From: Pirellulales bacterium
GTDB taxonomy: Bacteria > Planctomycetota > Planctomycetia > Pirellulales > Thermoguttaceae
Direction of reading: 5' to 3'
NCBI GenBank assembly: GCA_016935315.1
Contig: JAFGRD010000036.1
Coordinates: 1 to 64,000 of the forward strand
DNA length: 64,000 nt
The notes under the pieces were generated by a model that was given only the letters and a program-made list of their open reading frames with translations, made no database searches and was not told where the DNA came from. Made by a program: the position numbers and the translations under genes. Below, one piece after another: positions 16,429 through 30,983 of the stretch. Position 1 is the stretch's first letter, and the number at the start of each line of letters is the position of its first letter.

Positions 16429-17185
16429 GGCCCATTTCCTCCAAGCCGGTTCACCATCGATCGCAAGTCTTCGGACGGATCGGGATCGCCTGCGACAGAC
16501 CGCCCTCCGCGTGCCTCGATCGCCACAGCGTGCCTCGATCGCCACAGCCTAAAACCACCGTCCGATCTGGTCCCGTCCCCCTCCACACGCGCCCATTGTG
16601 AAACATAGCGTCCTGGCTTCAGTGCGTCGAGAGACGATTCTTGCCTGCGACGGCAAGCCGGAAGCCGGCAGTTTCGTTGGACGGGTCCTCCGAGCGTGAG
16701 CGCGAGCGGGCTGGAGAGAGGAAACAAGTTGCCCGGTCAAGAAGGGTAAATACACAGGTCGTGCGAGAATGACAGCATGCCGGCAGATCGGGAAGTCCGA
16801 GATAGCTGGGTGACTTGCGCAGGGTGTCTGCCAGCATGTGTGTCTTTGCGACGATCCAGTCGACTGAACTGGTTGGACGGCTGCAACGAGAACCGGCGCA
16901 AGTTCCACCGATGATCTGGCAAATCGAACCCGCAGATTATCTCTGATCGTCACACAAAAGAACCAAATGCTTTCACCTCTGGTAGGCAAGCCGATAAGGA
17001 TGTGGTAGAAAGCCGGCGATAGGAATGGTCGCTGTCTCCACTGCAACGAAGCCGAACACTCCCTAGAGCCTGATCTGCCCCGCCCAGGCAATGCGTGAGA
17101 CGCTCCGACTCGCATCCTGCGGTCGGCCATGCCGTCGCGAGGACAGGCGGCTGCTTCGTAGTATTTCGGTGTGGAGGTGAAAGGC
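16429..17185. other. Divergent intergenic region, aclBA / alphaCTD-sigma4 gene
   Basis: The 757 bp between divergently transcribed genes should hold promoters for both. Open frames on the minus strand here have no family resemblance or good start context. No RNA gene, transposon or clear operator was recognised. Confidence 0.5.
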
Positions 17186-19780
17186 ATGACACGAAGTCGA
17201 TATCCCCGCCGAGGTCAACGGCTGGCACCTGCGAGATTGCGTGAACTGTTGCAGCATCCCGTGCCGGAAAAGTGCTTGAGGGGGGAGGATAGTGCCGGCT
17301 TAATGTTGTGTGATCTGGATGAGACCGTCTGGGAGCGATTCGACGAAGACGTTTGTCAGGGACTTGCCTTTGCCGTGGTGCGTGCGGTGGCCCGTGCTGC
17401 CCGAACGCCAATGGCAATCGGTGATCATCATCTGCCTGCCATTCCCGAGGGAATGACTCTGGCCGACCTGGACCTGGAAGTCCGCACACTCAATTGTCTG
17501 GTCTCCGCGGGCATCCACGAGCGGCCGCAAGACCTGCACGGAATGACGATCGAGGGGATTCTGGGGCTTCGGGGGTTCTGGGTGAAATCCCTCGTCGATT
17601 TGCTCAGTTCCCTGGAGCATGTGATTGACCACCCCGAAGCCCGAAGGGCCGTGCGAACGGATGCGATCGCAACCGTGAGGCACTTGCGAGAGGCCCATCG
17701 GTATCCACGTCCGCATCATCGCCTGGCGCCGCAAACCCTAAAGGAGGTCTTGCTGGACCGGGTTCCGGCCAGCCTGGTGCGCGGGAGTCCTTTCCGCGGG
17801 AAGAGACTATGCGATTTGGATGAAACCGCCTGGGAGTACTTGTCCCAGACGGCGATCAGCAAGCTGGCAAATCTGGTTATCGCGCGAGCCGCTGCCGCCC
17901 CGCACCACCGGACCATCATGCAGCGGCGACTCCCCAAACCACCAAGGGGCATGCGGCTGGAAAGCCTTCGCCTGGAGAACCGCACGCACAACTGCCTTCA
18001 ACGAGAAGGATATGCCGAACGACCTGAAGATCTGGGCGGGCTCACGGTGACCGAGTTGCTCTCCATTCGAGCGTTCGGCGCCAAGTGTCTGGTCGATTTG
18101 CTCACATCGCTGGAAACGCGGGTAGCCCGGGAAGGCGATCTCGACGAGAAGTTGACTGCGGAAGGGAAAGCGTTGCGGCAAATGCCGAATGTCCAAGAGA
18201 TCGCGTTTAGCGACCCTCGACTGGGGCCCTTGCTGAGGTCGATGGATACCGAGTCGAATACGATTGGGCAAATGGCCGATCGCTTAATCGGCCGGCGATT
18301 GGATCCCCCCGACCCGGCGCGGTTGCGTGAGCAGATCCGTGAGTTGCGTCAGAAGATCTCCGAGTTGAGCGAGCTGCCCTTGGAAGAGGAGTTGACCCAG
18401 ATCTTCGCCCCCTCGTTCAGCGCCCGCGACCGGCGGATTGTGGCTGAATACTACGGCTGGGACGGTCGAGGCAACCACACGCTGGAGGAGCTCGGCCGGC
18501 AGTACGATCTCAGCCGGGAGCGGATCCGGCAGATTTGCGTGCGAGCGGTCAAGCGGGGCCGGGATGCGCACGTGTTCGCGCCCGTGCTGGATCGGACGCT
18601 GCGCTTCCTGGTCAAACGGTTCCCGATAGGGTTCGACAAGCTCCAGGCTGAACTGAATGCCAGCGGACTGACTCGGTGTGGCTTGCCGATCGAATCGATT
18701 CGCCAGGCCGCCGAGTTCCTTTCCCGACGGCCGGAGTTTGCCGTCGTCGACGTCGGTCGCAACCGCGTTGTCGTCCTCCCGAAGCACGTTCGGATGCCTC
18801 AGGCCATCGTGCGGGCCGCCAAACGCGTGGTCACCAACTACGGGGCGGGCACCCTGGCCGAGGTGGCCGATGAGCTCAGCGATCGCTTCCGGGGCAAGGT
18901 CGAGCCGCTGTTGATTCGCGAGACGCTCCAGTCACAAGACGGCATGCACTGGTTGGACGAGAAGCGAAACTGGTTCCGGCTCGACGCGCTTCCACAGTAC
19001 GGACTGCCGAGCCTGATCGAGAAGGTGCTTTCGGTGACCGAACGGATTGACGTCTCCAAGCTACGTTGCGCGATGGCCCGCTATCGACGCAACGGGCGGA
19101 GGCTGCCCCCACCGCAGATCCTGCTCGAATTCTGTCGCCAGATGAAGGGGATTCGCGTCGAAGACAACGTCATAATCTCCGATCCGCCGCGCGACTGGAC
19201 CAAAGTGTTGACAGGGGTCGAGCGGTCGATGGTGGAGCTGTTGAAGCGCTACGGGCCGGTACTGGAGCGGACGGTCTTCGAAGAGCTGTGCATTCATGGC
19301 GGAATGAACCGCTTCAGTTTCAACGCGATCGTGATGTCCTCTCCGGTCGTCGCCCAATACGGCCGCAGCGTCTACGGCCTGGTGGGGCTGAAGGTCGATC
19401 GGAAAATGGTCGCCGATCTGGTCAGCCAGAAGTCGGCAATGCCGTCCAACCGGGTGTTGAAGGCCTTCGGCGAAACCAAGGACGGCAAGGTCTATCTGGC
19501 GTACAAGCTCTCGAAGGCCGCCATTTCCGGCGGCGTGGTCACCGTCCCGGCTGCCGTGAAGCGGCAAGTGCGAGGCAAGTTCATTCTCCGTACCGACCAG
19601 GGCCACAAAGTGGGCACACTGGTTGCCAAGAAGGGGTGCGGCTGGGGATTGGGGCCGGCGCTGCGCGGCGGCCATGCCCAACAGGGCGACCACATGTTGC
19701 TGCTGTTGGATACGCCGAAACGTCAGGCCCATATCCACATCGGCGACGAGAACATCCTCAATCGGCTGACCGACGCCTGA
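17186..19780 (+). CDS. Tandem alpha-CTD-like and sigma-region-4-like transcription-factor-type protein
   Basis: 864 residues from ATG 17186, which is preceded by GGAGGTG. Two helix-hairpin-helix domains resembling the RNA polymerase alpha C-terminal domain lie near residues 90-148 (LEVRTLNCLVSAGI, then LGLRGFWVKSLVDLL) and 257-313 (LENRTHNCLQREGY, then LSIRAFGAKCLVDLL). Residues ~411-460 carry a sigma-70 region-4-type helix-turn-helix (TLEELGRQYDLSRERIRQIC). Several winged-helix-like segments follow. The last ~90 residues (GGVVTVPAAVKRQVRGKFIL) form an unrecognised domain. There are no sigma-2 or alpha-N-terminal parts, so it is neither a sigma factor nor RpoA. Direct DNA or polymerase contact is likely, but this is an inference. 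It stands alone between the divergent acl operon and a convergent giant gene. Confidence 0.75.
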   Translation: MTRSRYPRRGQRLAPARLRELLQHPVPEKCLRGEDSAGLMLCDLDETVWERFDEDVCQGLAFAVVRAVARAARTPMAIGDHHLPAIPEGMTLADLDLEVRTLNCLVSAGIHERPQDLHGMTIEGILGLRGFWVKSLVDLLSSLEHVIDHPEARRAVRTDAIATVRHLREAHRYPRPHHRLAPQTLKEVLLDRVPASLVRGSPFRGKRLCDLDETAWEYLSQTAISKLANLVIARAAAAPHHRTIMQRRLPKPPRGMRLESLRLENRTHNCLQREGYAERPEDLGGLTVTELLSIRAFGAKCLVDLLTSLETRVAREGDLDEKLTAEGKALRQMPNVQEIAFSDPRLGPLLRSMDTESNTIGQMADRLIGRRLDPPDPARLREQIRELRQKISELSELPLEEELTQIFAPSFSARDRRIVAEYYGWDGRGNHTLEELGRQYDLSRERIRQICVRAVKRGRDAHVFAPVLDRTLRFLVKRFPIGFDKLQAELNASGLTRCGLPIESIRQAAEFLSRRPEFAVVDVGRNRVVVLPKHVRMPQAIVRAAKRVVTNYGAGTLAEVADELSDRFRGKVEPLLIRETLQSQDGMHWLDEKRNWFRLDALPQYGLPSLIEKVLSVTERIDVSKLRCAMARYRRNGRRLPPPQILLEFCRQMKGIRVEDNVIISDPPRDWTKVLTGVERSMVELLKRYGPVLERTVFEELCIHGGMNRFSFNAIVMSSPVVAQYGRSVYGLVGLKVDRKMVADLVSQKSAMPSNRVLKAFGETKDGKVYLAYKLSKAAISGGVVTVPAAVKRQVRGKFILRTDQGHKVGTLVAKKGCGWGLGPALRGGHAQQGDHMLLLLDTPKRQAHIHIGDENILNRLTDA

Positions 19781-19853: not shown

Positions 19854-22800
19854 CTATTCCCAGTCGGTCGACCACAACGCATCCATGACGTCCTTGCCCG
19901 AGTTGTCCTTGGCGGAAGACCGGTCCTTCGCGATCGTCTGTTCGAATTCATACAGCCAGGTCAACTTGGCGTGAGCGCCCGGATCGTCCTGCAGCACCTC
20001 GATCTCGGCCTGCGGAGGCAATCCGGCGTGCCGTGATTTGTCGGCCCCGGCGGCCTTACTCTCGGCGACCTTGCCGCCGGGCACGGTGATCAGCCGCAAT
20101 GCGTTGAGGAAGTGCGTCTGGTTGTTCCGCGCAATGAGCATGTCCGTGGCGTTGACGCGGGCGTCATGATTGTAGTCGTAGTTGAAATCGACTGGGGCCG
20201 GGTTGAGGAAGTTGCGGGGGTTGTTCCGGGCCAGAAGCATGTCCGAAGCATTGACCTTGGCGTCGGCCGTCGAGTTGCCCGCCTCGCCCGGGGAGTTGCC
20301 GAAATAGAAAACGTCCGGTTCGCTCAGGCCCGTGTCCGCATTGGCCAGCACGGTGACCTGCAACCACTGTTTCGAGACGGCGAAGTTGGGCCAGACGATC
20401 GTGACGCGGTCCGCCCCGTTGTTGCCGGCGCCCGAGCGCACCGAGACCGTGCTCGGCGCAGAAGCGGCGCCCCACGTGCCCGGATTGTCGCTGTTGCCCA
20501 CGCGAAACTGGAAATCGGCGGCGTCCAGCGCCATGGGGTCCGTCACGCCGACGATGTCGACCATGATGCCGTTGATGCCGCGGCTGTAGCTCGTGTAGTT
20601 GGCAAAGGTGGCCGTCTGGCCGGGCAGCAAAGCCTGCTTATCCGTGGCGATCGCATTGTCGTCCGAAGCGTCGGCACCGGCGTTGTTGCCGTCGAAGACC
20701 GACTGGTTGTAGAAAACGTACCGGCCGACCACGCCGCTGGCAGTCTGCAACAGCGGTGCGGTGCCCGGCGTCGGCAGATCCGGGACCCAACTGGCCGCGT
20801 CATTGCCCCAGGCATCAAGGGCCGAGCGATTCAGCGATGCGCCGCCGCCGTCGGCCTCGGCCGGCCAAGACCCGCCGTCGGAATAGACCACTTCGTCCTC
20901 CAACAGCCTCGGGATGAACAGCGGCTCCTCGGCCGGCGGAAGGTCCGGGTCCTGCAATTGGACCTGCTCGCCGCCGTTGCTCAATTGGCCCGAGTAGGGT
21001 CCGAACAACGGCACCGTCGCATCGATTCCGTAGTAGGTACGGAAGGCCTCCAGCCTGTCGGCGTCGGCCGGGTCGAACGACACGACGACCAGCGTGCTGC
21101 CGGCAGCCAAGGCGGCGCCGTCGGCAAAATCATATTCGATCCCCTTGCGAATCAGCCAATCGGTTAGGTCAACGCTCGCCGCCGTGGGGTTGAAAATCTC
21201 CAGAAACTCGAAATCCTGGTCCCCCGGCTGATTCCCGGGATTGTAGTGGACCTCGCTGATGACCACGGGTCCGACCCGCGGGCCGCTGTTGTCTCCCTCG
21301 GCCGGATTGAGCGTCGGCGCCGCCATGGGATACAGTTCGCCGGTGCCGTTGGGCCAGCGGCCGAACGACTCGCCGTTGCCCGCCGCCCCGAACTCCAAGT
21401 GATCCGCGAAACGCGTGAAGTCTCCGAAGATGTCCGTCGCCAGCAGCCACACGTCGTCGCCGTGGGCGCCGTCGAGCGAGAAATCGTTCGGTCCCGGATC
21501 CAACGGGGTGGGATTGAAATCGTCCTCGTCAAACACCAGGTATCCGCCGGCCGGCACGCTGGTGCCGTCGGGAATGCGGAACTTGCGGTACTGCTCGCTC
21601 GAATCGCTCAGATACCAGCCGCCGACGTCGATCGAGCCACCGGTCGTGTTTCGCAGTTCGATCGCGTCGCTCAACGGCGCGTCGGTATGGGAGAGCACTT
21701 CGTTGATGACCACGTCGCGCACGGGTCCCATTCCCGCCGCTCCGGGCGATCCGCCGTACTCGGTGCTGGCCCGCCAGTTTTCGCTGTTGTCGTAATCGCC
21801 CGCCGGGTCGACGATCTCCAGCGAACTTCCCTTGCCGTTGGCCCGGCCCGGCCACGCGCCGTCGGGGGCGTAGGCGAAGTCGTGCACGACCCGCTCGAAG
21901 GGATCGAGCACCTCGATGTCTTCTCCCTCGTTGCGCAGCCTGCCGCTGTAGCTGCCGGCCAGGTTGGCGCCCGCGCCATACCGGGTGAAAAACGCGGCCG
22001 GGTTGCTGACGACCACCACGTGCGCGCCGGGATCCAGCTCCGTGCCGTCGGCGAACGTGAAATCGATGCCGTTGGTGAATCTCACTCCGCCAAGATCGAG
22101 CGTTCGGCCGGTCGTGTTCTGCAACTCGACGAACTCGAAGTCCTCGCTCTCGTAGCCGGCGGCCGCCTCAGCGGCGGTGGGCTCGTAGGGGGCGTAGTTG
22201 ATCTCGGTGATCCGCAGGCCGTCGGCCAACGGCCCCACCGCACCCCCGGCGACGAATTGCACCGGCTCGGACCAGTGGCTAAAGCGGCCGTTGCTGTCTT
22301 TCATCCGCACGCGGACGCGGTAGGTCTTGCCCACCTCGATGTCGCCGCCGGGAATCGTGATCGTATCGTCGAAGCTGGTCAACTCGTCGCTTTGCCAGGT
22401 GGCCGTGATCTCGTAGTGACGCGGCTGGGACGGATCGAAGTCGGGGCTGGTCGGATCGGTCACCCGGGCGATCCGCCATTGCATGGCCGAGAAGGAGGCG
22501 CCGAGCGGACTGCTGAACGTCCCGCTGCGGAACCGCAGCCCGTCGACCGGATAACCGTCTTGGCCGGTGTAGTCAAGCGTCGGTGCGTTGGGGGCCTGGC
22601 TGCTGTCCGAGGCGATGGTCGGATCGGTCGTGTCGCCCGAGATGCGCGCGGCGACGTAGTTTTTCTCGAATTGCAGCATGCCGGCGAAGTCGCGACTGGC
22701 CGCGGCCTGGTAATAACGCCCGTGACCGGCCTTGTCCGGGTTGATGTAACTCGAGACAAGAATCGGGTTGTAGTCCCACATGGCCCGGTCCGCATCGACG

Positions 22801-25800
22801 AACGATGCCTCTCCGGGCGTGTAGATGAACTGGGCGCATTCGTCCAGCAGCATGCCCGTCTGCTCCGGGTTGAACAGCAGATCGATGATCTCGCGCATGC
22901 GGTTGTTGTATTCGATGCGGAACTCGGGGAAGGCCTGCAGGACCCGATCGCGGAAGGGCTCGCCTCCGCCGCCGCCGCCGTAGGTCGTCGTCCAACAGAG
23001 ATCCAGGTCCCAGTTGTGGATCGACCACTTGCCGGTTTCCGGATTGTGGTAGTAGAAGTAGTTTTTGCCGGCATGGATATCGTAGTCGTGGATCGCCATG
23101 GCGATCGCCCGGAAGTCGTAGTAGCTGTCCAGGTCGAAGTTGTCGCGCCACCACTGGGCGGTCATCGCCCCGCTTTCATACGCGCTCATAAACGCGTCCA
23201 GGTCCGACCGGTTGGAAGGCTGTGTGGGGCCCTGATTGTTGAGCGTTCCGGTGCCGCCTTCCATCTTGTAGAAGTTGCCGTCGGGCAAGCCGTGCTCTTC
23301 CAAGAGATGGCCGTCGGGCTGCTCGATGGTCATGTACAGCCCTCGAAAATCGGTGCTGAACTGGTCCGGGCCGCCTTCGTTGCCGTCGTCCACGACGCGG
23401 AAGTGGAGGAAGTTGCAGTTCGAAGCCTCGTTGCCGGCCAGGTTGTGCAGCTTGAAGCCCGCCCACTCGAACAGGCCCTGCTCGCCGCGCTGGCCGAAGT
23501 TCCCCTGTTGGATCAAGGCCGAGAAGTTGAGCTTGTCCCATTGCGTTTCATACTTGTTGCCGTAGTCGTCGCGGGCCTGGAAGTAATGCCCCCGGTTGAA
23601 GTCGAACTTATACATGTTTTTGCCCATCGAGTAGCGCCAGACGCCGCCCCGGGCACGATAGCGGATATGGTCGTAGACCACGCCGTCGTAGACCAATGCC
23701 CCCTGCCAGAGATAGTCGCTGCCGCCGTAGCTGCCGGTGTTGGGCGTCTGCTGATCGGCCTCGCCCCAACGGTACGGCACGGACATCGCGTTCAGCCGGT
23801 CCTGGCGCTGGGTGATCAAGGTGTACACCGGAAGGCTCGTCAGCAGCTCCGAGTCGTAGGCTACCTCGGGTTCCTCGCCCGGCTGGGCCGAGCCGGTCCA
23901 GGAAGGCACGCCGTCGTAGACGTAGTAGGCGAAGTTCGGCTGCGGATCGTCGGCGTAGGGGGCCGTGACCGACGCGCCCAGCGTATCTTCGACCGTCACC
24001 CGATAACGCACCAGCCGGCGATTCGTCTGCAAGGAGCCGGGCAGCGAGACCGTATAGACGTCGTCGCCCGCAAACGCGTCGCCGTGCGTGCCGTCGTCGT
24101 ACATCGCCACGCGGGTCCAATACACGGGATTCTCGTAGCGAGCGTCGTTGATGCTGATGTAATCACCCGGCTCGACGAGCTGATAGGCCAAGGCCACGTC
24201 AGCGACGCCGTCCGGATCGGTCACCTTGACGGTAACGGTCACCTCTTGTCCTGAAGCCGGCTGTTCGGGCGAATGCTCGAGCTGGCGCATCTGCGGCGGG
24301 GCATTGGCGGCAAACACCGAATTGACCCGTCCCGGCGTGAGCCCTGCCTCGCCGCCGGTGGTGGAGCGCAGTTGCCCGTCGAAAAACGCGTCGCTGCTGC
24401 TGCTGATACTCGCGTTGAACAATTGCACGGCGATCACGTTCGTGCCGGCCCTGAGGAAACTGGCCGGATTGCTCAGCGTAAAGGGCACGAATTCGACGTT
24501 GTCGATCGCGCCGCTGGAGGTGGCACTGTAGGGCAACTCCTGGCCGGAGACGTTGGCGCCGTCGATGTAGTGGCCGTTGATCCAGAAGTTGATGCCGTCG
24601 TCGTAGCGTGCCTCAAACAGCAACCCGGCGTACGCGGCCGGGTCGTCGACCGTGAACTCCTTGCGGAAGTAGACGGTCGTGTATTCCCCCCGCATGTCGC
24701 TGAGCGTCGTGCGAATCACCGCCAACTCGTCACCCTCGGTGCTGTAGCCGACGGCGCCCGTGCCGATCGACCACCCCGAATCATCGAACCCCGGCTCCCG
24801 CCAGTCGCCCTGGGCCGACGGCTCTTGGGTGCCCTTGAAATACCGCCAGGTGGAATGCTCGACAAAGAGCATGTCTTCGTTGGATGCCGAGCCGGCCGAC
24901 GCCCGCCAACTGCCGGCCAGGTTGTTGTCCAGCCCCGGGTTGATCAGCTCCATCGAATATCCCGGCGCGTCACCCACGGTCGGCCAGGGGAATCCCAACT
25001 GATAATCGACCTCGTCCTGCTTCACACCGGCCGCGTCGCGCAACACGAGCCGATCGCTCTCGTTAGACAGTTTCCCTTCGAAGGGCCCCAGCGGCAGCGT
25101 CCCGCCGAACTTCGCCTGCGCCGCCGTCGGATTCTGGGCCACCACGACATAGCCGCCGGGCGCAACCGCCGTTCCCGCAGGAAACGTGTACCCGATTCCG
25201 TCGGAGAAATACCAGCCGGACAGATCGATCTCGACGCCGCTGGTGTTGACCAACTCGAGGTACTCGACCGGTTCGGTTTTGACGTCGGGGCGGACGTGCA
25301 GCTCGTTGATCACGATCGCGCCCACACGCGGACTGCTGTTGGGGCCGCCGATCGTCTCTTGGCTCATCATCCCGAACGGCCCGGTGCCGTCGGGCGCGCG
25401 ACCGAACGAGACGCCGTCCAGGGCCTCGCCGAACTCCACGTGATCGGCAAAACGAATCAGGTTGCCGAATATGTCGGCCTCCAGCAGCCACACGTCGTCG
25501 CCGAGACTGCCGTCCAACTGGAACGCACCGGGGCCGCCGGCGTTGAAGTCCGACTCGTCAAACACCAGGAACTCGCCCGGCGCGAGGATGGCCTCGGGCC
25601 CGTCGGGAATCCGAAACTTGCGGTAGTCGTCGCTCGAATCGCTGAGGTACCAGCCGGCGATGTTGACCGTGGCTGCCGAGGCATTGTACAGCTCAATGGC
25701 GTCCACGTCGCCTGCCGGCGGCCGCGAGAGCACCTCGTTGACGACGACGTCGACCACCGGTCCGGTGCCCGGGTGGCCCGGACTGCCGCCGTATTCGCTG

Positions 25801-28800
25801 CTGCTTCGCCAGTTGTCGTCGTCGCTGTAGTTGCCGGCCGTGTTGAGCACTTCCAGCGCGCTTCCTTTCCCGTCGGCGCGGCCAGGCCATTTACCCGAAT
25901 CGCCGTACGAGAAATCGTGAATCGCCACCCCGTTGCGATCCTGCAGCACGATCCGCTCGCCGTCATTGTCCAGGTTGCCCGTATACTGGCCGGCGACGTG
26001 TATCCCCGTACCATAGCGGGCCGCGAAAGCCGCCGGGTTGCTGATCAGCACGAGCGACTGGCCCGCGGCGAGATTGTCCACGCCGAAGTCGAACTGGACT
26101 CCCGTTGTGAATCGCAGGCCGGTCAGGTCGATCGCATGGTTTGTCGTGTTCTGCAACTCGATGAACTCGAAATCGTCGTTGTTGAACGTCGGGTCGGCGG
26201 CCAGTTCGTCGGCCGTGGGATCGTACGGGTTGTAGTTCAGCTCCGTAATCGCCACATCGCCGCCGACCGCCGGTTGCCCCACGAAGAACGTTGCCTGGTT
26301 CAGCGCCGACCACTCGCCGGCGACCATCGCCCGGGCTTTGACCACCGTCGATCCGGTAATGGAGATCGGGAAGACGCTGAACACGTCGGCATTGGGCGAA
26401 ACGCCGCCGCCGGGAAGACGCGGGTCGGAGCCGTCGAGCGTGTAGTAGATCACGCCCGCCGGCGCATTGATGAACAGACTGAAGCCCGACGCCACCTGGC
26501 CGCCGTGCTGGTTGTACGAAGGCGCGACCACGCTCGGATACAGCGGAGCAGGCGTGCCGCCGGGGAGCGTCGTCATCTCAAACTGGTTCAGCACGGTCTG
26601 CGAGCGCGTGGGAAAGAACCCGCCAAGCTCGCCGTCGATCGCCGCCTGCCAGTCGGCCTTGTCCAACGGCGCGGCTGTCTGTGCGTCGCCCCAACGCGCC
26701 GACTCGGCAATGATCGCCACGGCGATTTCGTCGGCCCGGGCCTGCAAACGCTCGGTCGAAGCAGTCGAGGTCAGCAAACCGTCGTTCAGCAGGCACTCGT
26801 GGGCGCGGTCGGCGAAGCGAAGACGGTACTCGGCGTTGGCCATCAACTGCTGGTGGAGCCACTGGGGGTTGCTCTTCTCGAACTGGTCGCCGGTGGTAAA
26901 CGGCCCGGTGCGGTCTTCGCTGCCCTGCGACAGTGTATGCTCCGCGTCCTGAATGAAGAACTGGAAACCCTCCTCGCCGGTCCGATTCCGTACGCCGTAC
27001 CAGTTGTTGGGATGGCTGTTTCCGAGCAACTCCGAGATGGGTGAATCCGCATCGCCGGTGTAGAAGATGACCAGCATGTAGTCGATCAAGTTATCGACAT
27101 CCAGCAGGACGTCGTACGCCGGATTTCGCGTGCCGTCGGCGTTTAAGCCTTGGGCGCGATAATACGCGGCGTCAGTCGCCAACCCGGCGTCGGCCTGGTT
27201 CCAGAGGCTCTGCCAGGCGGCAAGGTCCCCGTCGGTGGCGACAATCGTATAGCCGGCGTCCGGTTCGACCTTGATCACATCGTATTCACCACGGTTGCCG
27301 CCCAGATACGACTCGCCGAACGAGGCGTCGCTGCGCTCCTGGGTCTGGTACAGGCCCCAGTACTGGCCGTTGAGATAGAGATGACAGTAGCGGCTGCGAG
27401 TGTAGGGTTGGTCCATGTCGCGTTGCGTGTCGCGGGCGAACACGTCGCGGACCATGGTGCTGCTGCTGCTGCCGGTATGGCTCCACGAAGGATCCTGGGC
27501 CGTGCGCAGGTCGATCTTGTCGAATACGTCGACCCCCTCGTCGCCGAAGAGCGGGTACTCCAGCTTGGCCTGGCCGTATGCGTCGCGGAAAAACAGCCGG
27601 AGAGCATGCTTGGGATTGCTGCCAATGGTGCTCTCGCTGCCGCGGATCCGCAGCCCAGCGTCGATCTGGAAGCCCTGGCCACCGTCCGGGCTGATCAGCT
27701 CGACCGACGTCGGCCGCTCCCACTCGATCCCGTCCTGCGACGCGTTAACGTAGATGCCGCTGGTCGAGTCGAAGAGATTGTCCAGATCGGTCACCAGAGA
27801 GATGGTGGGAATCGCCGTCAGCGCCGCGTCGAGTTGCGGTCCCCACGTGGGATTGTTGACGATATCGGGGTCCATGCCGTAGTCGAAGACCTGGCCGTTG
27901 ATCGCGCCCGACGGCCACCCGACCGGGGCGCCCCCCGTCGGCGACTGCGCCATCACGTCGCCCAGGAAGACATAAGTCTGCGTGTCGACGTTGGTCGGAT
28001 GGTAGCCCTCCTTAAAGGCCGCCGCCCGCAAGGTCGTCGTGCTGCTGATGGTCAACGGGCCGGTGTATTCAACGCCCGTGGCTTCGGTCGGCTCGCTGCC
28101 GTCGGTGGTGTAGCGAATGGTTGCGCCGGGAGTGTCGCTGTGGATGGCCACCTGGAAGGGCGAGCTAAAAAAGCCGCGGTCGACGCTGAATCCCGTATCG
28201 CCCACGAAGTCGATGAAACCGGCCCCGTTGGGGCCTTGCGGCGTCGGCTCGTCGAAGAATCGCTGGACCTTGTCGATCTTCGTGGTCGTCAGCTCGGGCA
28301 AGATCAGGAAGTCGTCGTCGCCCGCGCTCACGTTGAGCCCGTGAATCGCCAGCAGGTTCGTTCCGGCCACCAAATTGCCGATCAATGCACTGAGATTGAT
28401 CTGCTCGAATGCCGAGGAGTCCTCGTAGGGCCGTTCGGAACTGGCCGCCGAATTCCAAGCGGGCAGCACGGGGGCGTTGCGTTGGGCCACCAATTGGCCG
28501 TTGAGGTAGGCCACGAACCCGTCGTTGTATTTGATCCGCAGCGTCAACGTGTCCAGCGTGGTGGGATCGTCGACCTCGAAGGGGATCCGCGTCCAGAGCG
28601 ACGCGTTGACGCCGCTCATCTCGGCGGCCACGTCGGTCTGAATCGCCCCGCCGAAGCCGGTAACCGCCAGCCCGCCCGACGCCGTGTCGCCCACCAGATC
28701 GAACACGTCGGCGTTGAACGAACTGTAGCTGCCCCTCGCGGCAAACAGCTCGAGCTCGGCGCCCAGGCTGCGCTCGAACGAGATGAGCCGCAGGTTGTAC

Positions 28801-30983
28801 GCGCCCGGCTGGTCGATATGGAACGTGGCCAGCGTGTCGCCGGCCGAGCGAAGACCCGGATACGACGCGCCGTAGTCGTCGACGCCGTTGTCCAATTCCA
28901 GGCTGAATCCTTCGTCGCTGCTGACACCGAATGTCCAGTAGCCGGGCGCGGGAATGATGACGGTACCCGTGGCTTCGATCACGAAGTCGTCAACGTTGCC
29001 GTAGAGTGTCAATCCGGGAAAGGCGCTGTTGCCGGCATAGTGCCCGTCGCTGCCGATGTTGTAATAGTTGATGACCTCGGCCCTTGCGGCCGAGACGGAC
29101 GACTGCAGCGCGGGCGTGTCGATAACCTCCTCGGCCTTGGCCAGGCTGTCGACGGCCACGTTCGCCTGGTAACAGGTCACCTCGAAGTTGGCCGGATCGG
29201 TTCGGAAACCGACGCCCGTGGTCGCCGGGCGAACGTCGCCGTCGAAAAACGGCACGTTCAGCGCCGGGTTCTGCGAGCCCTTGTTGGGCGTCTCCGTCGC
29301 CCGGAAGTTGGTCGCCGCGTTGTCGTCGGCGCCGCCGACGCGCTGCAGGGCCGTGCCGTTGACGAGATTGCCGACCGAGACGTTCTCGAATTCGGCCGTG
29401 CAAAGCACCCCGCCGCTGTGCGAGGTGACCATGATGCCGATTTCGACGTCGCCGCTGAACGAGATCGTATCGGAGCCGATCTGGCTCCAGGAACTGCCGT
29501 CGGGCGAGGAGTACGCCGTAACCGTGTTACCCTGGCGCACCAGCCTCACCCAGTAGGGAGCCTGGACGGAAGGGCCGGGCGTATGGCTGCTTCCGCCGCT
29601 GGTGACCGTGCGGCGCTGGAACGACACGCCGTTGCCGGGAGTCACGACTGCCATTGCGTGGGCGCTGTCGGGCGCCATCGAATCGCGGATCATCACTCCG
29701 GCCTTCGCCCAACTGTCCGTGTTCTGTACGCTGATGACCTTGGCAATCACCTCGGTGTCGCCGGAGTGGGTCTGGTGAACGAAACGAAAACTGTCCGAGT
29801 TGCCCCAGATGTCGCTACCGTTGCCTTGAATCGTCGTCACGCCGGTGGCCGGGTTGTAGGAGTCTGAGCCGGGCGTGGGGCCACCGATGTCGTCGCCCGG
29901 GTTGCCGGTGTTCCAGCCGCTGATGGCCAAGGAGGGGGCCGGGCCGGTCCACCGATCGCCCACCGTGATGTTGTTCAGTCCGTTGACGCTGACGTTCAGT
30001 GCCGCGATTTCCGCCTCGTCGTATCCCCACGGGAGGAAATCGACCACGCTGCCGCCGTTGTCGACCACCATGGCCCAACCGTGGTCCTGATCCCAGGAGA
30101 TGGGGCCGCCCCAGTAGTGGTCGCTGGCGCTGTCCGTCTTGTAGAGGATCTCTCCCGCAGCCACTTGCGAAGGCAGGTTCCAGACCACCGGATTCACGGC
30201 GTTGATGTTGCCGGACGATGCGTTGTTGACCGCGACGAACCAGCCGGAGGTGTTGATGCTGCGATCCGAGACGTTCTGGATCTCGAGCCATTCGGGGCTC
30301 CCGCAGTCGATCTCGGTAATCACCACCCCGGAAGCGCCCACCGTCACCGTGTCGGGCCACGCCGAATCGTTGTAGCCGGGCGCCGTCCAGTTCGCGGTCG
30401 CATCGCCGGCTGAAGGCACCAGATAGCTGAACTCGGCGCCTTCGGCGACCAAGGTCGTCACTTCCTGCGTGATACCGTATGAGATGTTCTTGTACTGTTG
30501 GGGGAACTCCGGCGTGAAATGGTGGGCGACCGTGGTCCCGTCCGACGCGACCAGTGCCAGATACTCTCCGTCGCCGTTGAGCTCAAAATTGGTGTGCAAT
30601 TCGGCCGGGTCGGGGCGATTCTTGTTCGACGCAAAAACGACCAGATAGTCGCCGGCGTCGATCGAGACCGCCGGAAACCGCCATTTCGCCAGATCGTTGG
30701 CGTCGTCGGTCAAGTACCAGCCTTCGAGGTCGAGTGCCGACGCATCGGGATTATGGATCTCGATCCAATCGGAGAAGTCGCCGTCCTCGTCGACCAGGCC
30801 GCCCTCGTTGATCGCCATGAACTCGCTGATCAGCGGGGTCGTGCCGTCCAGCACGAGCCGCGATTCAAGCGTTTCGAGAGTCGGTCGCCTTTTAAGCCGT
30901 GCGTCTGTTCGCCTGGGGCTCAGCAGCGTCTGACGTGCCCTGTTGGCCTTGCTCTTGAGAGTGCGCAGCACATCTACCTCCAT
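19854..30983 (-). CDS. Giant secreted CotH-kinase / lamin-tail / dockerin protein
   Basis: 3709 residues. The start is ATG 30983, or possibly GTG 30971 just after GGAGGT. The N-terminus carries the planctomycetal motif LETLESRLVLDG. Eight lamin-tail domains begin near residues 48, 220, 1575, 1750, 1885, 2925, 3090 and 3240 (pattern V(I/V)(N/T)E..., W/FIEIxN). A PA14-like domain lies near 650-770, chitobiase-C-like beta-sandwiches near 940 and 1500, a CotH kinase module near 1075-1435, and a second near 2385-2760. Dockerin-like repeats lie near 3570-3635 (DAKVNASDMLLARNN, DARVNATDMLIARNN). CotH proteins are atypical protein kinases, and lamin-tail domains are adhesive Ig-like folds. An external structural or scaffold role is inferred. 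Each CotH module is followed by three lamin-tail domains, suggesting an internal duplication. Confidence 0.9.
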   Translation of the reverse strand: MEVDVLRTLKSKANRARQTLLSPRRTDARLKRRPTLETLESRLVLDGTTPLISEFMAINEGGLVDEDGDFSDWIEIHNPDASALDLEGWYLTDDANDLAKWRFPAVSIDAGDYLVVFASNKNRPDPAELHTNFELNGDGEYLALVASDGTTVAHHFTPEFPQQYKNISYGITQEVTTLVAEGAEFSYLVPSAGDATANWTAPGYNDSAWPDTVTVGASGVVITEIDCGSPEWLEIQNVSDRSINTSGWFVAVNNASSGNINAVNPVVWNLPSQVAAGEILYKTDSASDHYWGGPISWDQDHGWAMVVDNGGSVVDFLPWGYDEAEIAALNVSVNGLNNITVGDRWTGPAPSLAISGWNTGNPGDDIGGPTPGSDSYNPATGVTTIQGNGSDIWGNSDSFRFVHQTHSGDTEVIAKVISVQNTDSWAKAGVMIRDSMAPDSAHAMAVVTPGNGVSFQRRTVTSGGSSHTPGPSVQAPYWVRLVRQGNTVTAYSSPDGSSWSQIGSDTISFSGDVEIGIMVTSHSGGVLCTAEFENVSVGNLVNGTALQRVGGADDNAATNFRATETPNKGSQNPALNVPFFDGDVRPATTGVGFRTDPANFEVTCYQANVAVDSLAKAEEVIDTPALQSSVSAARAEVINYYNIGSDGHYAGNSAFPGLTLYGNVDDFVIEATGTVIIPAPGYWTFGVSSDEGFSLELDNGVDDYGASYPGLRSAGDTLATFHIDQPGAYNLRLISFERSLGAELELFAARGSYSSFNADVFDLVGDTASGGLAVTGFGGAIQTDVAAEMSGVNASLWTRIPFEVDDPTTLDTLTLRIKYNDGFVAYLNGQLVAQRNAPVLPAWNSAASSERPYEDSSAFEQINLSALIGNLVAGTNLLAIHGLNVSAGDDDFLILPELTTTKIDKVQRFFDEPTPQGPNGAGFIDFVGDTGFSVDRGFFSSPFQVAIHSDTPGATIRYTTDGSEPTEATGVEYTGPLTISSTTTLRAAAFKEGYHPTNVDTQTYVFLGDVMAQSPTGGAPVGWPSGAINGQVFDYGMDPDIVNNPTWGPQLDAALTAIPTISLVTDLDNLFDSTSGIYVNASQDGIEWERPTSVELISPDGGQGFQIDAGLRIRGSESTIGSNPKHALRLFFRDAYGQAKLEYPLFGDEGVDVFDKIDLRTAQDPSWSHTGSSSSTMVRDVFARDTQRDMDQPYTRSRYCHLYLNGQYWGLYQTQERSDASFGESYLGGNRGEYDVIKVEPDAGYTIVATDGDLAAWQSLWNQADAGLATDAAYYRAQGLNADGTRNPAYDVLLDVDNLIDYMLVIFYTGDADSPISELLGNSHPNNWYGVRNRTGEEGFQFFIQDAEHTLSQGSEDRTGPFTTGDQFEKSNPQWLHQQLMANAEYRLRFADRAHECLLNDGLLTSTASTERLQARADEIAVAIIAESARWGDAQTAAPLDKADWQAAIDGELGGFFPTRSQTVLNQFEMTTLPGGTPAPLYPSVVAPSYNQHGGQVASGFSLFINAPAGVIYYTLDGSDPRLPGGGVSPNADVFSVFPISITGSTVVKARAMVAGEWSALNQATFFVGQPAVGGDVAITELNYNPYDPTADELAADPTFNNDDFEFIELQNTTNHAIDLTGLRFTTGVQFDFGVDNLAAGQSLVLISNPAAFAARYGTGIHVAGQYTGNLDNDGERIVLQDRNGVAIHDFSYGDSGKWPGRADGKGSALEVLNTAGNYSDDDNWRSSSEYGGSPGHPGTGPVVDVVVNEVLSRPPAGDVDAIELYNASAATVNIAGWYLSDSSDDYRKFRIPDGPEAILAPGEFLVFDESDFNAGGPGAFQLDGSLGDDVWLLEADIFGNLIRFADHVEFGEALDGVSFGRAPDGTGPFGMMSQETIGGPNSSPRVGAIVINELHVRPDVKTEPVEYLELVNTSGVEIDLSGWYFSDGIGYTFPAGTAVAPGGYVVVAQNPTAAQAKFGGTLPLGPFEGKLSNESDRLVLRDAAGVKQDEVDYQLGFPWPTVGDAPGYSMELINPGLDNNLAGSWRASAGSASNEDMLFVEHSTWRYFKGTQEPSAQGDWREPGFDDSGWSIGTGAVGYSTEGDELAVIRTTLSDMRGEYTTVYFRKEFTVDDPAAYAGLLFEARYDDGINFWINGHYIDGANVSGQELPYSATSSGAIDNVEFVPFTLSNPASFLRAGTNVIAVQLFNASISSSSDAFFDGQLRSTTGGEAGLTPGRVNSVFAANAPPQMRQLEHSPEQPASGQEVTVTVKVTDPDGVADVALAYQLVEPGDYISINDARYENPVYWTRVAMYDDGTHGDAFAGDDVYTVSLPGSLQTNRRLVRYRVTVEDTLGASVTAPYADDPQPNFAYYVYDGVPSWTGSAQPGEEPEVAYDSELLTSLPVYTLITQRQDRLNAMSVPYRWGEADQQTPNTGSYGGSDYLWQGALVYDGVVYDHIRYRARGGVWRYSMGKNMYKFDFNRGHYFQARDDYGNKYETQWDKLNFSALIQQGNFGQRGEQGLFEWAGFKLHNLAGNEASNCNFLHFRVVDDGNEGGPDQFSTDFRGLYMTIEQPDGHLLEEHGLPDGNFYKMEGGTGTLNNQGPTQPSNRSDLDAFMSAYESGAMTAQWWRDNFDLDSYYDFRAIAMAIHDYDIHAGKNYFYYHNPETGKWSIHNWDLDLCWTTTYGGGGGGEPFRDRVLQAFPEFRIEYNNRMREIIDLLFNPEQTGMLLDECAQFIYTPGEASFVDADRAMWDYNPILVSSYINPDKAGHGRYYQAAASRDFAGMLQFEKNYVAARISGDTTDPTIASDSSQAPNAPTLDYTGQDGYPVDGLRFRSGTFSSPLGASFSAMQWRIARVTDPTSPDFDPSQPRHYEITATWQSDELTSFDDTITIPGGDIEVGKTYRVRVRMKDSNGRFSHWSEPVQFVAGGAVGPLADGLRITEINYAPYEPTAAEAAAGYESEDFEFVELQNTTGRTLDLGGVRFTNGIDFTFADGTELDPGAHVVVVSNPAAFFTRYGAGANLAGSYSGRLRNEGEDIEVLDPFERVVHDFAYAPDGAWPGRANGKGSSLEIVDPAGDYDNSENWRASTEYGGSPGAAGMGPVRDVVINEVLSHTDAPLSDAIELRNTTGGSIDVGGWYLSDSSEQYRKFRIPDGTSVPAGGYLVFDEDDFNPTPLDPGPNDFSLDGAHGDDVWLLATDIFGDFTRFADHLEFGAAGNGESFGRWPNGTGELYPMAAPTLNPAEGDNSGPRVGPVVISEVHYNPGNQPGDQDFEFLEIFNPTAASVDLTDWLIRKGIEYDFADGAALAAGSTLVVVSFDPADADRLEAFRTYYGIDATVPLFGPYSGQLSNGGEQVQLQDPDLPPAEEPLFIPRLLEDEVVYSDGGSWPAEADGGGASLNRSALDAWGNDAASWVPDLPTPGTAPLLQTASGVVGRYVFYNQSVFDGNNAGADASDDNAIATDKQALLPGQTATFANYTSYSRGINGIMVDIVGVTDPMALDAADFQFRVGNSDNPGTWGAASAPSTVSVRSGAGNNGADRVTIVWPNFAVSKQWLQVTVLANADTGLSEPDVFYFGNSPGEAGNSTADAKVNASDMLLARNNPRNFLNPAPVDFNYDYNHDARVNATDMLIARNNQTHFLNALRLITVPGGKVAESKAAGADKSRHAGLPPQAEIEVLQDDPGAHAKLTWLYEFEQTIAKDRSSAKDNSGKDVMDALWSTDWE

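Follow-up and report, generated by a model that had tools for sequence, protein, structure and literature searches.

A planctomycete protein that joins two alpha-CTD-like domains and a sigma region 4 to predicted winged helices and a B3-type fold

Introduction

What might a single protein do with the promoter-reading domains of RNA polymerase (RNAP)? The question is raised by one gene in the window analyzed here, a stretch of 64,000 nucleotides from a Pirellulales bacterium of the Thermoguttaceae (assembly GCA_016935315.1, contig JAFGRD010000036.1). A preliminary description of this DNA had noted two domains like the C-terminal domain of the RNAP alpha subunit (alpha-CTD) and a sigma region 4 (sigma-4) in one 864-residue protein, and had proposed a transcription-factor mimic or an anti-/co-sigma-like regulator.

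Results and discussion

Domain composition of the protein

The gene encodes 864 amino acids plus a stop codon, with no inner stop in the translated window frame, and it is solitary, with flanking genes in the opposite orientation in the frame listing of the window. Its ATG is in line with the starts chosen for its relatives, all of which lie ahead of an RYPRxG motif. Pfam recognizes RNA_pol_A_CTD (PF03118) in two stretches with an E value of 5.4e-13 and Sigma70_r4 (PF04545) at residues 412-457 with an E value of 1.5e-9. Both matches are over the curated cut-offs and far beyond chance, which bears out the combination of the two kinds of domain in one protein. Furthermore, each alpha-CTD copy matches singly in a whole-genome search (E 6.0e-6 for the first and 9.2e-6 for the second). 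The alpha-CTD makes up the second half of a unit of about 150 residues that occurs twice, and both halves of this unit repeat (hhalign probability 99.9).

The lack of other alpha or sigma parts, also claimed earlier, holds as far as Pfam and NCBIfam see. More specifically, Pfam searches up to E 10 gave no hit for sigma region 2, the part for core binding and -10 recognition, and no alpha-NTD (dimerization/assembly domain) family among the three hits obtained. The NCBIfam rpoA and RpoD models align by their C-terminal ends only (25 of 30 matches listed), the RpoD models over about their last 60-70 positions only among the matches listed. Pfam, NCBIfam, PADLOC and PHROGs contain no full-length family for the protein; neither such a family nor a set of unrelated folds, the outcomes named beforehand as speaking against the combination, was found. 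No nuclease or other effector family appears among the Pfam hits up to E 10 (three in total), and a restriction or recombination enzyme was dropped as a candidate for want of any catalytic domain in Pfam.

Table 1. Features of the gene and its surroundings in the window, with the evidence for each
Feature	Residues	Position	Strand	Evidence
Shine-Dalgarno-like GGAGGTG ahead of ATG 17186		17173..17179	+	sequence
Whole gene (P0001)		17186..19780	+	frame listing, translation; start aligned with relatives
Unit 1 N-terminal half, YPRxG ... LCDLDE.W region	1-75	17186..17410	+	repeated in unit 2, hhalign 99.9
Unit 1 alpha-CTD		17453..17617	+	PF03118; contact residues
Unit 2 N-terminal half	168-240	17687..17905	+	hhalign repeat comparison
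Unit 2 alpha-CTD		17951..18115	+	PF03118; contact residues
Predicted helical region without family	319-408	18140..18409	+	AlphaFold2 model
Sigma-70 region 4 helix-turn-helix	409-460	18410..18565	+	PF04545; 3n97_D Z 8.7, rmsd 1.6, 50 aligned
Predicted winged helix 1	466-530	18581..18775	+	model secondary structure
Predicted winged helix 2	535-600	18788..18985	+	model; SelB 2v9v Z 8.7, rmsd 4.0, 118 aligned over 535-669
Predicted winged helix 3	603-666	18992..19183	+	model, fold matches
Predicted winged helix 4	669-734	19190..19387	+	model; cullin winged helix 3tdu_C Z 7.9, rmsd 1.8, 58 aligned
Predicted B3-type DNA-binding pseudobarrel	757-856	19454..19753	+	separate model pLDDT 85; ranks 1-24 of B3 kind

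An AlphaFold2 model of the 864-residue protein, built on 13 family members, reached a mean pLDDT of 85.2 and a pTM of 0.56, values at which the domains of the model are fairly reliable and their mutual arrangement is not. In the roughly 400 residues after sigma-4, the model predicts four winged helices followed by a B3-type barrel, and both kinds of domain are known from the model only. The structure prediction proposed earlier as a check has in this way added these domains; together with the repeat units of about 150 residues, they had been missed by the preliminary description, which was partial while right about the two alpha-CTDs and sigma-4.

The best match for two of the winged helices is provided by those of SelB (2v9v), and the top Foldseek match of the long model is a UFL1/DDRGK1 chimera (E 7.3e-4). 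The best winged-helix fold matches include chains of SelB, UFL1/DDRGK1, ESCRT-II and cullins; because Z-scores near 8 are common, these matches show the kind of fold and not a relationship. No repeats were detected among the four winged helices (pairwise hhalign probability at most 1.0). Alpha-CTD chains are absent from the fold-match lists of the long model, lists of a kind that one domain alone can fill.

The C-terminal part was also modeled alone from 24 sequences, with a pLDDT of 85.3. The B3 domains of FUS3 and VAL1 lead its Foldseek matches with a probability of 1.00 (E 4.2e-3 and 5.3e-3; none below 0.001). In a second fold comparison, plant B3 proteins share ranks 1-24 (Z 8.1 to 6.1) with EcoRII, BfiI and LlaJI recognition domains, and Z then drops to 4.5. 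These include LlaJI.R1-N (6c5d_A; Z 7.6, rmsd 3.6, 95 aligned), EcoRII-N (3hqf_A; Z 7.2, rmsd 3.4, 101 aligned) and BfiI (2c1l_A; Z 6.5, rmsd 3.0, 97 aligned). We assign the modeled residues 757-856 to the B3 pseudobarrel fold, in which they resemble the B3 superfamily (EcoRII-N, BfiI-C and LlaJI.R1-N; plant VAL1, FUS3 and ARF1), whereas identity to the domains in ranks 1-24 is 5-16%. The Pfam B3 family has no match in the 24 family members. B3 domains are best known from plant regulators and restriction enzymes; unlike the B3 restriction enzymes, the protein has no nuclease domain in Pfam up to E 10, which would place a B3-type domain in a bacterial protein without a recognized nuclease.

We hold it moderately probable that the protein is a stand-alone, chromosomal, multi-domain DNA-binding transcription regulator. 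Two alpha-CTDs and a sigma region 4, the upstream promoter readers of RNAP, would be reused as plain DNA-binding domains, with further contacts given by the four winged helices and the B3-type domain. Each module would bind DNA, the targets would be promoters and the effect regulatory. The protein has no recognized catalytic or polymerase-core-binding part. It would occupy UP-element and -35-like sequence, where it would keep RNA polymerase out or, less likely, assist it. Sigma-4 and B3 domains are DNA-binding kinds and winged helices are often so, which supports a DNA-binding regulator. RNA or protein may also be the ligand of a winged helix, and this counts against the reading.

Contact residues of sigma-4 and the alpha-CTDs

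Residue numbers and roles are taken here to be those of E. coli alpha and sigma70. The tree and residue counts draw on 26 family members, after three second copies (L063, L088 and L091, of the L009, L010 and L011 genes) were dropped; sigma-4 was caught in 25 of them, and the remaining fragment (L031) is left out of both the sigma-4 counts and the tree. The positions of sigma70 R554, E585, R588 and Q589 are unchanged in all 25 members, and that of R584 in 24. The position of R562, which we take to be a -35 contact, is Tyr in 23/25. At the position of L598, presumably a beta-flap contact, Leu is present in only 2/25 members, as against both of the own-genome sigma factors compared (caught at two of five loci tried). 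This pattern suggests that DNA reading would be largely kept and flap binding lost, with -35 reading perhaps altered.

In the alpha-CTDs, compared with the RpoA of the same genome, the R265 position is Arg in 33/33 units and the K298 position Lys or Arg in 31/33, where the genome's own RpoA has Thr. N268 is kept in 16 of the 18 units of nine two-unit proteins and in none of the nine units of the one-unit clade, and Trp replaces Gly at position 296 in unit 1 of 8/9 two-unit proteins. Because of the changes at N268 and position 296, DNA reading may differ from that of RNAP. The kept sigma-4 positions and the kept alpha R265 and K298 positions support the regulator reading, while Tyr at R562, the loss of N268 and Trp at position 296 count against it.

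The same residues bear on a polymerase-associated co- or anti-sigma, whose sigma-4 would sit on the beta flap, or whose alpha-CTDs would sit on the sigma-4 of the holoenzyme, and which would steer or inhibit the holoenzyme. Its sigma-4 is a real homologue by PF04545, the sigma70 positions 593 and 596, which we assume to face the alpha-CTD, are K/R in 22/25 and 20/25 members, and Asp occupies alpha positions 259 and 261, presumably facing sigma-4, in the first unit of the window protein. All of this would suit such a protein, whereas the scarcity of Leu at the L598 position and the absence of sigma region 2 and alpha-NTD in Pfam speak against it, and we regard it as unlikely. As for the two roles proposed in the preliminary description, a mimic of the promoter-reading surface agrees with the anatomy and with the retention of most DNA-contact positions; the anti-/co-sigma role gained no positive support, given that no RNAP-binding part of alpha or sigma was found in Pfam or NCBIfam and L598 is rarely kept.

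A bolder form of the regulator reading builds on the stoichiometry, two alpha-CTDs and one sigma-4 being the same as in RNA polymerase. The protein could then be a one-polypeptide copy of the upstream surface of the holoenzyme, a composite reader of UP element and -35 that competes at RNAP's own promoters, with a one-unit paralogue as a second reader of other reach and the B3 domain serving regulation, not restriction. We offer this as a tentative possibility.

Family distribution and descent

The phylogenetic spread, a check also proposed earlier, is patchy. At E <= 1e-15, the family profile found matches in 21 of the 396 genomes searched in the order; among these matches, those in G130 and G094 are fragments, and the proteins of G098, G611 and G624 lack an alpha-CTD. 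A single-sequence search of a sample of the order matched 10/196 genomes (E <= 1e-10), among them G134, whose 497-aa frame matches only around sigma-4 and gives no profile match at 1e-15. In the phylum sample, 3/392 genomes match (E <= 1e-12): that of the window and two whose proteins have alpha-CTD units without a match to sigma-4. An alpha-CTD unit is carried by 22 of the 26 family members according to the family's own profile, and one relative (L033, 7886-10267) has three such units preceding sigma-4, so that unit number ranges from none to three.

The alpha-CTD units were encountered only among Planctomycetota and on two MAG contigs labeled Nealsonbacteria and Thorarchaeota (L011, L012), which carry this planctomycete-type gene. 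Since L011 and a contig of G584, which belongs to the window's family, are identical, the label of L011 is probably wrong.

The window's own genome has a second copy of the gene, with one unit and 44% identity. In the tree of 25 rows, all nine two-unit proteins belong to a set of ten with support 94/94 (not starred), and a set of twelve (99/99) is made up of the remaining proteins of the window's family, which have one unit or none. Two changes of the two-unit label are required on the tree, since L098 in the set of ten is a one-unit protein. Both sets are represented in five genomes: the window's own (G000), G584, G747, G704 and G645. In each set, G000 groups as sister to G584 (91/91 and 100/98), and G704 as sister to G645 (100/100 and 100/100). 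These matching sister pairs speak for two paralogue clades that probably arose by an old duplication, followed by vertical descent with loss. The co-occurrence of the paralogues in five genomes with matching branching is what one would predict for chromosomal genes that are retained. Outside the window's family, long branches make the placement of members in the tree unsure. In two close pairs, third codon positions carry an excess of the differences (64/55/191 and 81/66/166 by position), which counts in favor of the regulator reading.

Gene neighborhood

For the family members, 121 neighbor frames were listed and 97 scanned. No recurrent partner gene emerged: the histidine-kinase ATPase family was the most frequent Pfam match (E <= 1e-10), with 4/97 neighbor proteins, and none exceeded that count. 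Metabolic and signaling families are the most frequent among these mixed neighbors, and the few relatives common to several loci, including kinases and oxidoreductases, do not stand beside the gene in several loci. The absence of a recurrent partner supports a stand-alone regulator.

PADLOC matched 50 families among the neighbors at E <= 1e-10; of the 25 listed, two match two proteins and the others one each. The models for HEC-01A (E 1.1e-161), AriA (E 6.8e-36) and a type II methyltransferase (E 3e-26) are each matched by one neighbor protein, and the 97 proteins scanned show no sign of a shared defense operon. The AbiLi model is also strongly matched by a single neighbor protein. Downstream of the gene in the window itself lies a 3709-aa frame (19854-30983, minus strand), read by eye as a probable large secreted protein containing domain repeats.

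A phage origin was dropped after viral contig pattern scans with P0001, the one-unit paralogue and a Pseudomonas relative gave nothing. In phage records, P0001 gave short sigma-4 hits only and the Pseudomonas relative none.

The protein could alternatively be a defense or anti-mobile-element sensor or targeting protein, in which the B3 domain and winged helices would recognize foreign or modified DNA in the manner of EcoRII/BfiI-like enzymes. The likeness of the B3 domain to LlaJI.R1-N, EcoRII-N and BfiI fits this idea, as do the single neighbors matching the HEC-01A, AriA and methyltransferase models, which count against the regulator reading. Furthermore, MzaA of the MZA anti-phage system likewise has a sigma-4 late in a large protein (35 bits). 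However, only sigma-4 aligns with MzaA, at 35 bits against a curated cut-off of 800 bits, and identity with MzaA was rejected on that ground. The absence of an effector domain in Pfam, the mixed neighbors with no recurrent partner, paralogue trees that look vertical and not mobile, and viral contig pattern scans without relatives all weigh against defense, which we consider quite unlikely.

Plasmid relatives of the sigma-4/winged-helix core

Searches by tblastn from P0001 and its paralogue reach proteobacterial plasmids. The set of eight plasmid proteins comes from Piscinibacter, Variovorax, Diaphorobacter, Rhodoferax and Delftia and from Pseudomonas and Vibrio megaplasmids. Seven of them show similarity to the family profile (E 5.2e-43 to 2.3e-22) that spans sigma-4 and between two and four winged helices, and the match of the Delftia protein is confined to winged helices, with no sigma-4 (E 4.9e-12); these E values refer to a search of the eight proteins. 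No alpha-CTD is detectable in any of the eight, and a B3 domain was undetected by sequence. The plasmid proteins share with the family a sigma-4 followed by a row of winged helices, whereas their N-terminal parts differ, which supports the regulator reading. The Rhodoferax protein has hits to Cro-type helix-turn-helix domains, below the cut-offs. Two of the eight bear the public name 'sigma factor-like helix-turn-helix DNA-binding protein', and hypothetical proteins are also in the set. From this we judge that the sigma-4/winged-helix core is already a named kind, of which we found no study, and that the alpha-CTD units are probably an addition to it.

In two Pseudomonas megaplasmids and one Vibrio megaplasmid, the gene adjoins dnaQ, dnaB and dnaE. 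These three megaplasmids of about 900 kb (L024, L026, L110) have in common a dnaQ-dnaB-dnaE ... DEAD helicase block, inside which lies a sigma-4/winged-helix protein of 340-360 aa. The Variovorax relative has a replication initiator nearby, and the Diaphorobacter relative has ParB/RepL some kilobases off.

Such settings raise the idea of a DNA-binding protein for chromosome or replicon maintenance, in which alpha-CTD and sigma-4 would be merely architectural and transcription not the target. It draws on the replication or partition genes beside or near the Pseudomonas, Vibrio, Variovorax and Diaphorobacter relatives, but no clear setting of this kind surrounds those of Rhodoferax, Delftia and Piscinibacter, and the planctomycete neighbors examined show no such linkage. 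In addition, the profile search at 1e-15 gave nothing in 375 of the order's 396 genomes, so the gene is not essential. We consider maintenance quite unlikely as well.

Relation to described proteins

Bacterial proteins combining alpha and sigma features with a HARE-HTH winged helix were reportedly described by Aravind and Iyer in 2012 (Cell Cycle 11:119). They would share with the present protein alpha and sigma features and a winged helix in one bacterial polypeptide. The four winged helices modeled here, in contrast, are not recognizable as HARE-HTH by sequence, and the 2012 proteins are not known to include a B3 domain. HARE-HTH (PF05066) has no match in the window's genome at E <= 1, and none of the four winged helices exceeded a probability of 0.8% in an hhalign comparison with a HARE alignment from 13 loci. 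As HARE-HTH membership fails by sequence, the protein is not filed with the HARE proteins. The fold-match lists of the model hold other winged helices, a kind of result that excludes no HARE-HTH fold. The 2012 proteins may nevertheless work like the 864-residue protein.

Among the matches listed in a literature search that left most subscription papers outside, none describes the combination. The work of Aravind and Iyer is referenced or briefly mentioned in passages of PMC7660087, PMC10853773, PMC3767597 and PMC4729829. Combined alpha/sigma proteins are thus known in kind, and the layout of two alpha-CTDs, sigma-4, winged helices and B3 is best regarded as a probable variant. If the regulator reading is true, promoter-reading modules would have been taken off RNA polymerase and reused as a free repressor or competitor, and the protein would offer a direct route to asking whether joined alpha-CTD and sigma-4 suffice to find promoters.

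Other carriers of alpha-CTDs

About 12 kb from the gene, the window encodes a second protein with alpha-CTDs (P0002, 31637-32959, plus strand), which consists of 440 aa with TPR repeats and two canonical alpha-CTDs. Its alpha-CTDs score far above the gene's own copies by the Pfam model (E 3.4e-22 and 2.0e-20). Both proteins, encoded in the same genome, have two alpha-CTDs without polymerase parts; P0002 differs in having TPR repeats in place of sigma-4, winged helices and B3. The same genome also encodes a solo alpha-CTD protein of about 100 aa (L104, G000:C51:20620-20811), which brings the kinds of alpha-CTD carrier other than RpoA to four: solo, TPR, two-unit and one-unit paralogue.

The YPRxG/alpha-CTD unit is also present in two proteins of planctomycetes from a different family: L039 (964-3240) has three copies and L038 (1495-2883) one, and neither protein matches sigma-4. 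The C-terminal end of the L038 protein is a B3-like domain.
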